DNA of 64,000 nt from Rhizobium sp. SEMIA4064 (GTDB lineage: Bacteria; Pseudomonadota; Alphaproteobacteria; Rhizobiales; Rhizobiaceae). Shown piece by piece: positions 34,861-40,266 of this stretch. The notes under the pieces were generated by a model, which was not told where the DNA came from, searched no databases, and worked only from the letters and a program-made list of their open reading frames with translations. Both the position numbers and the translations under genes were made by a program. How positions within the stretch are numbered: position 1 is the first letter of the stretch; each line of letters opens with the position of its first letter. The DNA is taken from assembly GCF_003025035.1 (NCBI RefSeq), contig NZ_PYJN01000018.1:124001-188000 (forward strand), read 5' to 3'.

Positions 34861-34890
34861 AAAAAAGCCGCCTCGAAATCTCGGGCGGCT
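34861..34890 (-). terminator. trp attenuator terminator
   Basis: On the minus strand AGCCGCC and GGCGGCT close a stem around CGAGATTTCGA, followed by TTTTTT. It sits between trpL and trpE(G). The 5' arm can instead pair with GGCGGC right after the trpL stop codon (about 34920-34926), the expected antiterminator. Confidence 0.9.
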
Positions 34891-34927
34891 CACTCGTCGT
34901 CTTTGAACACGATTGGTCGAGGCCGCC

Positions 34928-34975
34928 TCAGCGTGCCCACCACCAAACTGCAATATTGTTCAAGGACATGTTCAT
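34928..34975 (-). CDS. trpL: Tryptophan leader peptide (peTrpL)
   Basis: Fifteen residues, MNMSLNNIAVWWWAR, with three consecutive TGG codons near the end. It matches the S. meliloti peTrpL type, which also ends WWWAR. When charged Trp-tRNA is short, the ribosome stalls at the TGG run and the antiterminator forms. There is no ribosome binding site; the -10 element lies about eight bases from the ATG, so the mRNA would start at or very near the AUG (leaderless), as known for S. meliloti trpL. The peptide and attenuated RNA (rnTrpL) act in trans in that species. Confidence 0.93.
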   Translation of the reverse strand: MNMSLNNIAVWWWAR

Positions 34976-36053: not shown

Positions 36054-37571
36054 CTACCTCCTGGCCGCCTCGAAGAACTCCTCCGGCCCCTCCACTTCCG
36101 TCAGCCGCTTCTTCTCAATCAGCCAGAAGCGATTGCCGATGGCGCGGACGAAGCTGCGGTCGTGGGAGACGAGCAGGCAGCTTGCCTCTTGCGTCATCAA
36201 CTCGCCCTCCAGCGCCTCCTGCCCATCGATATCGAGATGGTTGGTCGGTTCGTCCAGTAGGTAGAAGTTAGGATCGGTCAATCGCAGCACCAGCATGGAC
36301 AATCGCGCCTTCTGACCACCCGAAAGCCTGCCGATGGCCCGGCCCTGCATGTCGACGCCCATACCGGCGCCAGCAAGCAGCGTGCGCGCCCGCTGTTCGC
36401 CGAGTTCGAACAGCCGCGTGATCACGCCGAGCGGGGTGTCGTCATGACCGAGATGCGAGAGCGCCTGATCGCTATAGCCTAGCGCCAGCGATGGCGTTGC
36501 CCGGATTGCCCCCGATGCGCTCTGATCGGCAATGGCTTTGTGGATCATCTCGACAAGCCGGGTCTTGCCTGCCCCATTTTGGCCAAGCAGGACGATGCGA
36601 TCACCCTGGCAGATCCAGCGTTTGCCGGTCTTGAACAACAATGTGCCATCCGGTGTCTCGACGCAGGCATCATCGAGCGTCACCAATATCTTCGCCTGAA
36701 TGCCGCGATTGGCGAGCTTGATCGCACCGGACGAACGCTCCTGATGACCCGGCCGTGCCGCATCCTCCAGGCGCTCGGCGCGCGCCTTGAGCTGTTTCGT
36801 CTTGACCGTCAGCAGGTCGCTGCCGGAATTGATGCCGAGATTGTTGAGCTTGGCTGCCTGCTTGCGCAATTGCTGCGCCGTCTTCATGTCCTTCTGGTAA
36901 CGCCGCTCATCCGAAGCGTCGGCCTCGTCCAGCGCAGCCCGTGCCCGGCCATACGGCAAGGCGTAGTCCACCGATTGCTCCTGGCGCAGGAACAGGGTGC
37001 GGTTGGTGACGGCATCGAGAATGGCGCGGTCGTGGCTCGCGATCAACACCGGCACATCGCGTGGCAGAGCGTTCAACCAATCTTCCAGCAGCGCGATCTT
37101 CGCGAGATCGAGGTGGTTGGTCGGCTCGTCCAGCAGCAGGACATCCGGCTCCGTCACCCAAACACGGGCGAGCATGGCCAGCCGCTGCCAACCGCCACTA
37201 AGCTCCGCAAGTGCCCTCTCCCGCAGCACCTGCGGCACGTCGAGCGAATCCAAACTGACGTCGACGCGCCAGCCCTCGCTCTCGGCTTGTTCGGCCGGCA
37301 GAGCACGGAGAACCGCATCGTAGAAAGAGATAGCAGCCAGATCGGCCGGCACATTCTGCTCGACATAGCCGACCCGAAGGCCGCGCGAGCGGGTAACGTC
37401 GCCCGCTGTCGGCTCCAGCCGGCCGGCGATGCAATTGAGCAGGCTGGATTTACCCCTGCCATTGGCAGCAACGATGCCTATACGGTCGCCGGCACCCACG
37501 GTGAAATTGAGATTGGAGATGAGCGGCACACCCAAGGTAATGCCAAAATTGCGGAGATTGATCAGAGTCAT
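36054..37571 (-). CDS. ABC-F family ATPase
   Basis: A 505-residue soluble protein with two ABC domains and no membrane segment, so an ABC-F translation factor. Walker A sites: VAANGRGKSSLL near residue 38 and LGQNGAGKTRLV near 318; signatures LSGGWQRLAMLARVWVTEPD near 130 and LSGGQKARLSMLVLRLTDPN near 415; each is followed by LLDEPTNHLD. The linker between the domains is charged and helical. ABC-F proteins rescue stalled or antibiotic-bound ribosomes. A short ORF with a palindrome upstream (37774-37845) suggests regulation by ribosome stalling. ATG 37571 begins the conserved MTLINLRNFGITLG. Confidence 0.93.
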   Translation of the reverse strand: MTLINLRNFGITLGVPLISNLNFTVGAGDRIGIVAANGRGKSSLLNCIAGRLEPTAGDVTRSRGLRVGYVEQNVPADLAAISFYDAVLRALPAEQAESEGWRVDVSLDSLDVPQVLRERALAELSGGWQRLAMLARVWVTEPDVLLLDEPTNHLDLAKIALLEDWLNALPRDVPVLIASHDRAILDAVTNRTLFLRQEQSVDYALPYGRARAALDEADASDERRYQKDMKTAQQLRKQAAKLNNLGINSGSDLLTVKTKQLKARAERLEDAARPGHQERSSGAIKLANRGIQAKILVTLDDACVETPDGTLLFKTGKRWICQGDRIVLLGQNGAGKTRLVEMIHKAIADQSASGAIRATPSLALGYSDQALSHLGHDDTPLGVITRLFELGEQRARTLLAGAGMGVDMQGRAIGRLSGGQKARLSMLVLRLTDPNFYLLDEPTNHLDIDGQEALEGELMTQEASCLLVSHDRSFVRAIGNRFWLIEKKRLTEVEGPEEFFEAARR

Positions 37572-37773
37572 GGTCTTTTCCGGTCTGACCCAAGCAAGCC
37601 ACCGTCCATCGATCCAAGGCGCCTTATCGCCATGGGATGCAGGTGTTACCGGCCGTATGTTCGGCTCTTTGCTCGGTAAACTGTCATGACGCAGCCGCGC
37701 GAACACAAAAGCTCAGCGCTGCGTTACCCAACAGGGGCAGACCAGAAGGAAATGAGTGAGTGACAGCCTCTGA

Positions 37774-37845
37774 TCAGCCCTGCAAACGCGTTTGCAGGGC
37801 ATGAGTCGGACCGAACTGGCGATTACGCCAGACAAACGTCATCAT
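37774..37845 (-). CDS. Putative regulatory upstream ORF of the ABC-F gene
   Basis: A 23-codon ORF on the same strand as the ABC-F gene, starting MMTFVWRNRQFG and ending LQTRLQG. A very strong ribosome binding site (GAGGAGGG, about five bases before the ATG) argues that it is translated. Its last eight sense codons are exactly a perfect 24-bp palindrome, directly followed by TGA. Stalling on this ORF would prevent the hairpin from forming. The ABC-F start is 203 bases downstream. This resembles leader-peptide control of ABC-F resistance genes in Gram-positive bacteria; here it is inference. Confidence 0.55.
   Translation of the reverse strand: MMTFVWRNRQFGPTHALQTRLQG
37777..37800. repeat. Perfect 24-bp palindrome in the ABC-F leader
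   Basis: GCCCTGCAAACG followed directly by its exact reverse complement CGTTTGCAGGGC, with no spacer. As RNA it would form an 8-10-bp stem with a small loop. It contains the end of the upstream ORF. It could also be a DNA operator for a dimeric repressor. Confidence 0.85.
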
Positions 37846-37986
37846 GCGGCCCTCCTCTCTCAATCGGTTGAGCCGCCTTGATAGCATTGAACGCTGCGAT
37901 AGACAATCGCGCGGCATTCGCAGGCAGGCGTTCAGGAAGGCGAAGCCGAGCATGTTTATGCGTCAGCTTCCCCAAAAATGCTCAGG

Positions 37987-38037: not shown

Positions 38038-40266
38038 TTAGAACTTCTGCGTCAGCGTCAGCTTGAAGGTCCGGCCAGGCTCCGAATAGAACTCATGCGG
38101 TTGCGTCAGACTGGTCGAGGCGACGTTCAGTGCGTCGTAATAGGTCTTGTTGAAGATATTATAGACCCCTGCCCGCAACGTCAGGCCTTTCACCTGCTCC
38201 GGTTCCCACCATCCCGTCAGGTCGAAGATGCCGTAACCCGGCGTGCGGAAGCTGTCGCCATCCTTCTTCGGCTCGCTCGTCGCGGTGATGAAGGTCAGAT
38301 CCGTACCCCAGATCTCGGTGGCATAGCCGACGGTGAAGGCCGCCTTTGCCGGAGCGACGGAATCGAGCCATTCGCCGGTATCGGAGTCCTTGCCATTGGC
38401 ATAGGCAAGCGAGCCCTTGATATGAATGCCATTGTCGAACTTCTTGTGCGCATTGACCTCGACGCCGAAGATGCGGACGTTGTCGCGGTTGAAGTATTCG
38501 GTAATCCCCAACGGGTAAGTACGCGTCGGATCGACGGAAGTCTCGCTGTCGATGAAGTTCTTATACTTGTTGTAGAAGCCGCCGATATGGCCGCCGAAAT
38601 CATCATCGCCGAGGTTCGCGCCGATTTCGACGCCGTTGCTGGTCTCCGGCTTCAGATCGGGATTGCCGTAGCTGACATAGCCGCCGGGCACGCCGTAATT
38701 CAGGTAGAGTTCGCTGACATTCGGCGCGCGGAAGCCCATGGCCCATTGCGCATAAAGCTCGACATTGTTCTGCGGCTGGTATGCCGCACGCAGCTTCGGC
38801 GAGAAGCGGGTGTCGGACTGTCCGGACGGCAGGCCGGAATAGTTGGCGCTGTCGCGATAAGCGTCGGTATTCTTTGGCGAGTAGTCATACCAGTCGAAGC
38901 GCAGGCCCGGCGTCAGCGAAAAGCTGCTGGAGCCGATTTCGATCTTGTCGTCGATGAAGGCGCCGACGCGCTTGCCGTCGACATCAGGCATATCAGACTG
39001 GTTGGTGTGCAGGAATGCGCAAGAAGCGGCCCAACGAGGAAGGTTGCAGCTATCGCCGCCGGCTGAATATTGATGCGTCTTGGTGAAGGCGACGTCGAGG
39101 CCGAAGGTGACGTTGTGATGCAGGCTGCCGGTATCGAAGGACTTCGACGCATTGCCGTTGAAGCCGATGCTGCGATCCTCGACCTCGTTGCGGCGCCAAT
39201 AATCGCCGATGACGGAGGTATAACGATAACCCTCGGCGCCGTTCTCGCGCATCAGGTTCTGCCAGTAGAAGACCGCATTGGCGGTGTCGACCAGCGAGTC
39301 GGCGCTATCGGCCTCGTATTTATAATCGAGCGACAGGCGGTTGCGTTCGATATTGTCGGTCGTATCGTAGTTGCCAGGCCGGAAGTTTCCGGTCGGGCTC
39401 TGCAGATGCATGGCATCGATATCTGTATCTTTATTGTAGTGTTCGGCCGTAATGCCAAAAGTTCCGACATCGGTATATTGGCGGATCTTGAAGAGGCCAT
39501 TGCGCTGGTTGTAGTTGGCCGGATCGGCCTCGGTGCGCTTGGTGGAGTAGCCGCCGACATCGCCGTTGTTTTCCAGCTCATGTCCGTGCGTGTATCCGCC
39601 CTCGAAAAGAACGGCAGTATTGTCGATGCGCTTGGCAACTGCGGCCGAGCCGCCGACGCTGCGGTCATCGCCGTTGTAGCCGAGTTTGAAGACGCCGCCC
39701 CAGGTCGAACCAGGCGTGATCAGATCCTCCGGCTCCAGCGTGCGCAACACGAAAGCGCCGCCAAGAGCACCGGAACCAGCGCGGCTGGAATCGGCGCCGC
39801 GCACGACGTCGACCGTCGAAAGCGTATTGAAGTCGAAGCTGTTGACGCCGCCGTCCGCAGCGCGAGCGCCGTCGAGCAGGAACGGGACCTCGATGCCGTC
39901 GATCGTCGTCAGCACGCGGTCGTCTTCGAGGCCGCGAATATTGATGCTGCCGCTGGTGCGGTCGAAGCCAACGCCGACTTCGGTGCTACGGCCAAGGTCC
40001 TCGATACGGGTAATCTGATTATCGTCGATTTCCTTTGCCGTCGTCTCAGTGGTCGTCGGCGAGTCGGCGAGCACGTCTTTCGACGCTTTCCCCTTGACCA
40101 CGATCGGCTTCAACTCCGTTGCGCGGCCGCTCTTCGCCGCCGCTCCGTCTGCGGTCGCATCATTCTGATTTGCCGTCTGCGCATAAGAGGCCGTGCCGAG
40201 CCCGAGGGCCAGAAACGCCGTGCACGCCAAGAGAACCGAGCGGGATCGCCGGACAACCATAACCAT
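38038..40266 (-). CDS. TonB-dependent haem/haemoglobin-type outer-membrane receptor
   Basis: A 742-residue outer-membrane receptor. Signal peptide at residues 1-30 (LLACTAFLALGLGTASYAQ), a plug domain with GSINIRGLEDDRVLTTIDGI near 105 and DVVRGADSSRAGSGALGGAF near 155, and a 22-strand barrel ending in TFKLTLTQKF with terminal Phe. It resembles rhizobial haem receptors of the ShmR/HmuR/BhuR type, the TonB-haemoglobin/transferrin family. Two TGA-N9-TCA (IRO-like) motifs overlap and precede its promoter, indicating iron control by RirA. No haem ABC transporter genes are adjacent. Confidence 0.93.
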   Translation of the reverse strand: MVMVVRRSRSVLLACTAFLALGLGTASYAQTANQNDATADGAAAKSGRATELKPIVVKGKASKDVLADSPTTTETTAKEIDDNQITRIEDLGRSTEVGVGFDRTSGSINIRGLEDDRVLTTIDGIEVPFLLDGARAADGGVNSFDFNTLSTVDVVRGADSSRAGSGALGGAFVLRTLEPEDLITPGSTWGGVFKLGYNGDDRSVGGSAAVAKRIDNTAVLFEGGYTHGHELENNGDVGGYSTKRTEADPANYNQRNGLFKIRQYTDVGTFGITAEHYNKDTDIDAMHLQSPTGNFRPGNYDTTDNIERNRLSLDYKYEADSADSLVDTANAVFYWQNLMRENGAEGYRYTSVIGDYWRRNEVEDRSIGFNGNASKSFDTGSLHHNVTFGLDVAFTKTHQYSAGGDSCNLPRWAASCAFLHTNQSDMPDVDGKRVGAFIDDKIEIGSSSFSLTPGLRFDWYDYSPKNTDAYRDSANYSGLPSGQSDTRFSPKLRAAYQPQNNVELYAQWAMGFRAPNVSELYLNYGVPGGYVSYGNPDLKPETSNGVEIGANLGDDDFGGHIGGFYNKYKNFIDSETSVDPTRTYPLGITEYFNRDNVRIFGVEVNAHKKFDNGIHIKGSLAYANGKDSDTGEWLDSVAPAKAAFTVGYATEIWGTDLTFITATSEPKKDGDSFRTPGYGIFDLTGWWEPEQVKGLTLRAGVYNIFNKTYYDALNVASTSLTQPHEFYSEPGRTFKLTLTQKF

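Follow-up and report, generated by a model that had tools for sequence, protein, structure and literature searches.

What does a 23-codon open reading frame that ends in a perfect palindrome do ahead of an ABC-F gene in Rhizobium sp. SEMIA4064? The original prediction, made from the 64,000-nucleotide stretch of DNA analyzed here (the window), was that a ribosome stalled by an antibiotic on this ORF would block the palindrome's hairpin and switch ABC-F expression on. The leader ORF, MMTFVWRNRQFGPTHALQTRLQG, occupies 37774–37845 on the minus strand (23 codons plus TGA), and its assignment is based on sequence reading, same-genus loci and codon-level conservation. A second ATG lies inside it at 37842. 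Its Shine-Dalgarno sequence, GAGGAGGG, was read as the complement of the forward-strand letters (37850–37857, minus strand), and a script located a leader start preceded by a Shine-Dalgarno sequence in 55 of 57 representative leaders. The palindrome GCCCTGCAAACGCGTTTGCAGGGC at 37777–37800 makes up the final eight sense codons, with TGA at 37774–37776. The predicted ORF, ribosome binding site, palindrome and stop codon are all correct in coordinates and letters on the minus strand. The palindrome is single-copy at up to 3 mismatches in the assembly of the window's genome, which is 82% complete.

The ATG of the window ABC-F gene at 37571 is 205 nt after the last sense codon of the leader. The conserved unit extends 3' to this start and 5' to a putative promoter, TTGTCT-N17-TATCAA (37878–37906, minus strand), assigned by consensus match. 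In 84 of 126 leaders the pattern TTGN3-N16..18-TATN3 occurs 50–150 nt ahead of the hairpin, compared to 4.1 expected from shuffles. A stricter promoter scan of the window gave an opposite-strand site (37878–37907) as its sole match there. From the sequence, the transcript is expected to start just before the leader ORF. An ORF that resembles a TonB receptor in its translation lies upstream of the leader at 38038–40266, and a relative of it was found in the surrounding stretch at 11 of 29 further loci of the genus. Rfam release 15 gave no match in 37540–37960 up to E = 1, and a known RNA family was rejected on this basis. Elsewhere in the window, the RcsR1 sRNA was located at 34861–34956 on the minus strand with 107.7 bits.

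The gene presumed to be controlled encodes a 505-residue ABC-F ATPase (36054–37571, minus strand), identified by its conserved start and protein matches. It was taken from the ATG at 37571 rather than as the longer 550-residue frame from the GTG at 37706; an equivalent start is present in all 36 same-genus loci that have the whole leader region, the window included. The best NCBIfam model is NF000355 (ribosomal protection-like ABC-F) with 284.6 bits, below its cut-off of 380, and all 23 members of protein set A7 match the same model at E ≤ 1e-50. The closest solved chain by both sequence and fold is VmlR2 (8buu), with YheS, YbiT, EttA and PoxtA among the next. The fold search placed VmlR2 first and PoxtA second with EttA and YbiT close behind, a ranking that is not decisive. 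The linker was modeled with moderate confidence as two helices (residues 207–249 and 252–272) without an inserted tip loop. An accessory role would fit the distribution of the gene, which occurs in 57 of the 297 family genomes and also on plasmids. The protein may protect against a drug and is a putative resistance factor.

Distribution of the leader and its linkage to ABC-F

Sequence comparison indicates that the window leader is one case of a conserved ABC-F leader in Alphaproteobacteria. The 341 bases of the leader region were searched against 61 genomes and matched 37 of them, which are the window's own genome plus the 36 other members of the genus; none of the 24 genomes of other families matched. 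Alignment across Rhizobium genomes had been suggested as a check on the prediction, and the leader recurs in 37 of 37 same-genus genomes with one copy partial. The other 36 loci contain the whole leader region, including G009 with its earlier stop. In the partial copy (L016 in G024), the leader ends after codon 22 and the stretch searched contains only the last 65 residues of ABC-F, about 1 kb further; this locus was left out of the alignments and later sets.

Of the 297 family genomes, 57 have a leader found by covariance model R1, and these represent 27 of 109 genera; the ABC-F protein was detected at E ≤ 1e-100 in the same number of genomes. Every one of the 57 ABC-F genomes carries the leader, which R1 detects in 56; the leader of the remaining one (G155), MFTLRHQHHHTFGPDFALHQ, was missed by R1 and recognized by eye. 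The only family leader without the gene is that of G109, where a decayed ABC-F start read by eye follows and tblastn gave no match to ABC-F within the 2.5 kb examined. The best protein match in G236 and G275 is the later part of the gene and the first part matches separately (L057, L075), and the ABC-F frame may be broken in these two genomes.

The same association extends beyond the family. In the order, a wider model matches 65 of 397 genomes at E ≤ 0.001. The 43 order-level loci inspected, which exclude eleven matched genomes, comprise 39 with a downstream ABC-F match and four without (L139, L140, L141 and L144), all four of them weak (E of 2.9e-4 or more). The 385 genomes of the class yielded 12 loci besides the window at E of 4.4e-11 or less, all of which precede ABC-F, and six weaker inspected matches (E of 9.3e-5 or more) that precede no ABC-F. 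In the 398 genomes of the phylum, every match below E 1e-10 falls in the same class, and three matches outside it are weak (E of 1.4e-4 or more) and involve only hairpin-sized parts of the model. Six loci (L079, L095, L139, L140, L141 and L144) were left out because the start was not placed, the gene was decayed or there was no ABC-F. The hand-thinned sets A4 and A6 contain 69 and 72 loci; L080 is in neither, and L138 is not in A6.

An independent degenerate pattern was built from the Gly-Pro codons, the hairpin arms and the TGA and applied to a collection of 84,980 species with one genome each. It detects at least 118 loci. The predicted location of the ORF ahead of ABC-F was recovered in 117 of the 118 matches listed, which sit 62–229 nt before an ABC-F start, and the remaining locus (L181) is cut short with just 89 nt of downstream sequence. 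The titles of 80 listed pattern matches include Rhizobium, Mesorhizobium, Bradyrhizobium, Bosea, Devosia, Aminobacter, Ensifer, Shinella, Roseomonas, Sulfitobacter, Yoonia and Nisaea. The leader is therefore found in rhizobia, as originally described, and is not confined to them, since Roseomonas, Nisaea, Sulfitobacter and Yoonia are among the listed matches. Plasmid copies of the gene also have the leader in all five cases inspected of the 12 listed, two of which are Sinorhizobium meliloti psymA. The leader carries no annotated feature in four plasmid records with gene tables, and these tables are incomplete. The two psymA plasmids (L285 and L289) are of the PLSDB type conjugative, and a RelE/ParE-type toxin gene and a ParD antitoxin gene lie upstream in L285.

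Peptide signal and RNA segments

The most constant part of the peptide is a Gly-Pro pair, Gly12-Pro13 in the window (37807–37812, minus strand), two codons before the hairpin. This is the putative stall site, a role assigned from its conservation and from the RNA switch model. Of 139 leaders, 136 have Gly-Pro at codons −4 and −3 relative to the hairpin and three lack it; the choice of hairpin favored Gly-Pro for 12 class-level loci and was unbiased for the other 127, 126 of which have it. In the 57 representatives, Gly is found at −4 in 55 and Pro at −3 in 56. The entropies of the three codon positions in these sequences are 0.22, 0.13 and 1.10 bits for Gly and 0, 0.13 and 1.65 bits for Pro, and the free third positions are a mark of selection on the peptide. 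The synonymous, codon-level conservation anticipated for the ORF is thus located at Gly-Pro. The wider motif is RxxGP in 46 of the 57 representatives, RGP[VI] in 39 and [RK]x[RK]GP in 37. The window's clade has RQFGP(T), without an Arg adjoining the Gly. The leader ORF usually has 13–16 codons ahead of the hairpin, and its TGA directly follows the hairpin in 46 representatives; the stop is inside the hairpin in eight and 11–17 nt beyond it in three. A literature search with the letters of the leader peptide found no paper.

The codons that follow Gly-Pro (GCC CTG and onward) are fixed by hairpin pairing. Five kinds of change occur in the 5' arm within the genus, and four of these keep the pairing as wobble pairs. 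The changes that keep pairing include Gln to stop in mid-hairpin (G009, L035) and Gln to Arg; a Leu to Pro change in G008 (L036) breaks one hairpin pair. ALQMRLQG was rejected as the main peptide signal because the 3' arm is common to two helices, most kinds of 5'-arm change keep pairing, and eight representatives have a stop inside the hairpin. The initial emphasis on the perfect palindrome and its ALQ-RLQG codons did not hold: these letters are set mainly by RNA pairing, and the peptide signal is the RxxGP just upstream.

The RNA of the leader region divides into four segments on the minus strand. Segment 1 is the 5' arm of hairpin 1:2, GCCCTGCAAA (37791–37800). Segment 2 consists of the 3' arm of this hairpin plus UGAUCAGAGG (37767–37786) and can partner segment 1 or segment 3. 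Segment 3, TTTCCTTCTGGTCTGCCC (37735–37752), can partner segment 2 or segment 4, and segment 4, CAGACCGGAA (37578–37587), lies 7–16 nt before the ABC-F ATG. Helix 1:2 pairs GCCCUGC... with ...GCAGGGC, and helix 2:3 pairs GGGC-U-GAUCAGAGG with CCUUCUGGUCUGCCC. Helix 3:4 is formed by UUCUGGUCUG and segment 4 directly ahead of the ABC-F start, with 10 pairs including one G-U. The three helices are mutually exclusive. The usual hairpin in the genus has as many as ten stem pairs, G-U pairs among them, and a UGCG loop. Among the 36 same-genus loci whose leader region is complete, the window alone has the self-complementary center ACGCGT, and the perfect palindrome was rejected as the key feature because no other of these loci has it in perfect form. 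The 24-bp palindrome is present in the window as reported; its perfect form is not a conserved feature, and the conserved object is the hairpin together with segments 3 and 4. Two departures from the common arrangement were observed. Segment 3 of L080 (G265) lies about 80 nt after the hairpin compared to 14–43 nt elsewhere, an apparent insertion between segments 2 and 3. Five loci (L090, L091, L093, L094 and L096) have a TAA stop inside the hairpin, and the letters of their segments 2 and 3 are quite different.

Covariation was measured in 72 diverse sequences over 17 pairs, which comprise 1:2 and the upper part of 2:3, using an alignment fitted to the model, which favors the result. In this alignment 93.8% of the cells pair, and shifting it by one column reduces pairing to 44–53%. 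Changes on both sides were counted in 10 pairs and 53 cells compared to 6.0 pairs and 20.7 cells in shuffles. Examples of the pair changes are GCCCUGUAAA/UUUACAGGGC, GCCCCGCG/CGCGGGGC and GCCCCACGA/UCGUGGGGC. An alignment-free swap test compared each sequence's own partners with partners exchanged between genera in 5000 swaps. The outcome was 0 of 5000 for 1:2 (46 representatives) and 0 of 5000 for 3:4 (48 representatives); two control windows gave 1603 and 1002 of 5000 (48 representatives). Helix 2:3 did not pass, with 1419 of 5000 (48 representatives), because its sequence is nearly constant; some covarying pairs are seen in it in the 72-sequence alignment. Compensatory changes, proposed earlier as a check on the palindrome, are present in hairpin 1:2 by both the covariation counts and the swap test. 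Helices 1:2 and 3:4 are thus supported by covariation through the swap tests. Helix 2:3 is supported more weakly, through pair counts and constancy. The swap tests of 2:3, 3:4 and the control windows and a terminator scan took their positions from the end of the hairpin and the start of ABC-F. Neither the 48 leaders scanned nor the window region yielded a terminator-like element, and control by an intrinsic terminator was rejected on these grounds.

Folding model and proposed switch

The peptide and RNA signals and the folding calculations make it probable that the leader is a ribosome-sensing, ermC-type translational attenuator of ABC-F that is opened by a ribosome stalled at Gly-Pro. In the proposed mechanism, translation of the leader ORF without delay, or its lack of translation, would let 1:2 form and then 3:4, and ABC-F translation would be low. 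A ribosome stalled with the Gly-Pro codons in its P and A sites would cover segment 1 with its leading edge. Segment 2 would then be freed to pair with segment 3, exposing segment 4 and the ABC-F start. A drug or a natural product that targets the peptidyl-transferase center or exit tunnel would most likely cause the stall, with ABC-F as the response to it. We infer the stall at Gly-Pro, the control at translation and the identity of the inducer. The stalled-ribosome switch first suggested is upheld in its conserved ORF, covarying hairpin and link to ABC-F, and it is amended in that release would act only through segments 3 and 4, which had not been reported.

Folding calculations address whether a ribosome on the leader could redistribute these helices. 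Without a ribosome, 35 of 36 same-genus leaders have 1:2 formed and 3:4 above threshold. A P-site placed anywhere from codon −4 to +1 brings 2:3 past 0.5 in 16–20 of the 36. A 29-nt ribosome footprint was then moved along 62 leaders, consisting of 46 representatives (a single one for each genus but three for that of the window) and 16 chosen named loci, with codons numbered from the hairpin. Half of 3:4 is lost in 0–3 leaders with the P-site at −14 to −8, in 7 at −7 and in 14 at −6 and −5. The number is 21–25 from −4 to +1, followed by 17 at +2, 9 at +3 and 0–1 from +4 to +9. The highest single count is at codon −3. These counts place Gly-Pro (−4, −3) at the 5' edge of the switch plateau; the switch window does not single it out, since the plateau reaches +1. 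When segment 4 is still missing from the RNA, 59 of the 62 leaders form 2:3 with 6 pairs if the P-site is at −3, compared to 34 of 62 in free RNA. The count is 0 of 62 for a P-site at +7, which is the final sense codon in leaders whose stop comes after the hairpin.

At equilibrium, folding predicts a switch in no more than 25 of the 62 leaders, and in the window's own RNA 3:4 persists with a ribosome at Gly-Pro and no switch is predicted. The model needs folding during transcription for this reason. In shortened window RNA, 2:3 appears only at some lengths and ribosome positions. The predicted openness of the ABC-F start hardly shifts, with the mean rising from 0.30 to 0.35 and a second value going from 0.43 to 0.46. 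The ABC-F Shine-Dalgarno sequence is weak and no strong one was seen by eye near segment 4; helix 3:4 therefore hides no strong Shine-Dalgarno sequence.

Related systems and alternative explanations

The ermC attenuator has a four-segment scheme. The present leader is like it in having a leader ORF, exclusive helices 1:2, 3:4 and, on weaker support, 2:3, and a segment 4 located where the downstream gene begins. It differs in preceding ABC-F rather than a methyltransferase gene, in a segment 4 that covers a weak Shine-Dalgarno sequence, and in having both arms of 1:2 inside the ORF in most representatives. An ermC-type translational attenuator is described in the excerpted text of PMC10219788. 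The uORFs of Gram-positive antibiotic resistance ABC-F genes (msrD, vmlR, vmlR2, cplR and lsaA) are given in excerpts of PMC10314930 and PMC10201436 as 3–6 codons long (MRI, MIN, MK[L/Q], MAGN and MYLIFM), with premature transcription termination as the usual control and, in cplR, a translational anti-Shine-Dalgarno part that acts alongside transcriptional attenuation. As far as these excerpts go, the likeness is a short ORF ahead of ABC-F with alternative RNA structures; the differences are the 13–16 codons before the hairpin, the RxxGP core, the lack of a detected intrinsic terminator and the occurrence in Alphaproteobacteria. A uORF of a Sinorhizobium meliloti DUF1127 gene is also rhizobial and responds to translation inhibition, being tetracycline-responsive and modeled as Rho-type transcription attenuation with a C-rich element; it precedes a different gene, and the excerpted text of PMC12218461 describes no such exclusive hairpins for it. 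No description of an alphaproteobacterial ABC-F leader was found in the titles and abstract openings of the best-ranked papers, a search that covered few subscription journals.

Four other explanations were weighed against a drug-responsive translational switch. Chance occurrence of the ORF, or a small protein gene with no part in ABC-F control, has only the short length of the ORF in its favor and is extremely improbable, given the linkage to ABC-F, the constant spacing between peptide core and hairpin and the joint damage of leader and gene in G024 and G109. We give as little credence to the palindrome as a DNA operator for a transcription factor with the overlying ORF incidental. The 24-bp palindrome is perfect in the window; however, the hairpin of some other species is 26 to 28 bases with differing arms, G-U pairs and compensatory pairs, and the Shine-Dalgarno sequence and Gly-Pro codons are kept. 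The uORF might instead control transcription, with a stalled ribosome preventing Rho-dependent termination in the 62–229 nt before ABC-F. There is enough room between leader and gene, and the excerpts of PMC12218461 give a Rho-type model for the S. meliloti uORF, yet this reading does not predict a covarying 3:4 helix beside the ABC-F start and we consider it unlikely. The other transcriptional route, through an intrinsic terminator, is opposed by the scan of the 48 leaders and the window region.

The remaining alternative keeps the same switch and changes the inducer. Arrest at R-x-R-G-P would be cleared by ABC-F itself, and a shortage of ABC-F or slowing at Gly-Pro would raise ABC-F synthesis. 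SecM forms a comparable autoregulatory loop for SecA. This form of autoregulation is rather improbable for the present leader. The RGP of 39 of the 57 representatives, within a uORF, resembles the RAPP-like arrest motifs, which the excerpted text of PMC12992588 lists as RAGP in SecM, RAPP in ApdP, and RGPP. Ectopic msrD suppresses induction through the msrD leader according to the excerpt of PMC10314930, and that of PMC11381351 reports that stalls are resolved by ABC-Fs such as YfmR. Against this, RGP is followed by Val or Ile in 39 of 39 and never by Pro, so that no R-(A/G)-P-P or RAGP/RAPG core was found, and the window's clade with RQFGPT keeps Gly-Pro without Arg beside the Gly. The gene is also accessory, being carried by 57 of the 297 genomes in the family sample. 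Within SecM, the P166A and RAPG variants are defective in arrest, yet RAPG is the natural core of ApcA (excerpt of PMC12992588). The similarity to RAPP-like peptides is a lead, not membership.

The drug-responsive translational attenuator remains the preferred reading, and the leader would represent a new sequence context for ribosome stalling. A broader claim is that RxxGP, often RxRGPV, defines a new class of conditional arrest peptides in Alphaproteobacteria through which the ribosome detects an inhibitor or an ABC-F shortage and switches on a stall-clearing ABC-F. We advance this tentatively, as somewhat doubtful. If true, an ancient sensor-resistance pair with its own stalling chemistry has spread through the class, and the inhibitor is perhaps derived from soil. 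A leader with a Gly-Pro core and exclusive helices would serve as a natural, testable sensor for ABC-F responses, and its carriers include Rhizobium, Mesorhizobium, Bradyrhizobium, Bosea, Devosia, Roseomonas and Rhodobacterales.

A further pairing was observed at the ABC-F start of the window. In the minimum-energy structure, GAUCAGAG after the leader stop (37767–37776) pairs with CUCUGAUC in the first ABC-F codons (37560–37571). This predicted pairing may be a further lock on the ABC-F start. Both stretches, compared by eye, are common to the window's clade and absent from the other clade.
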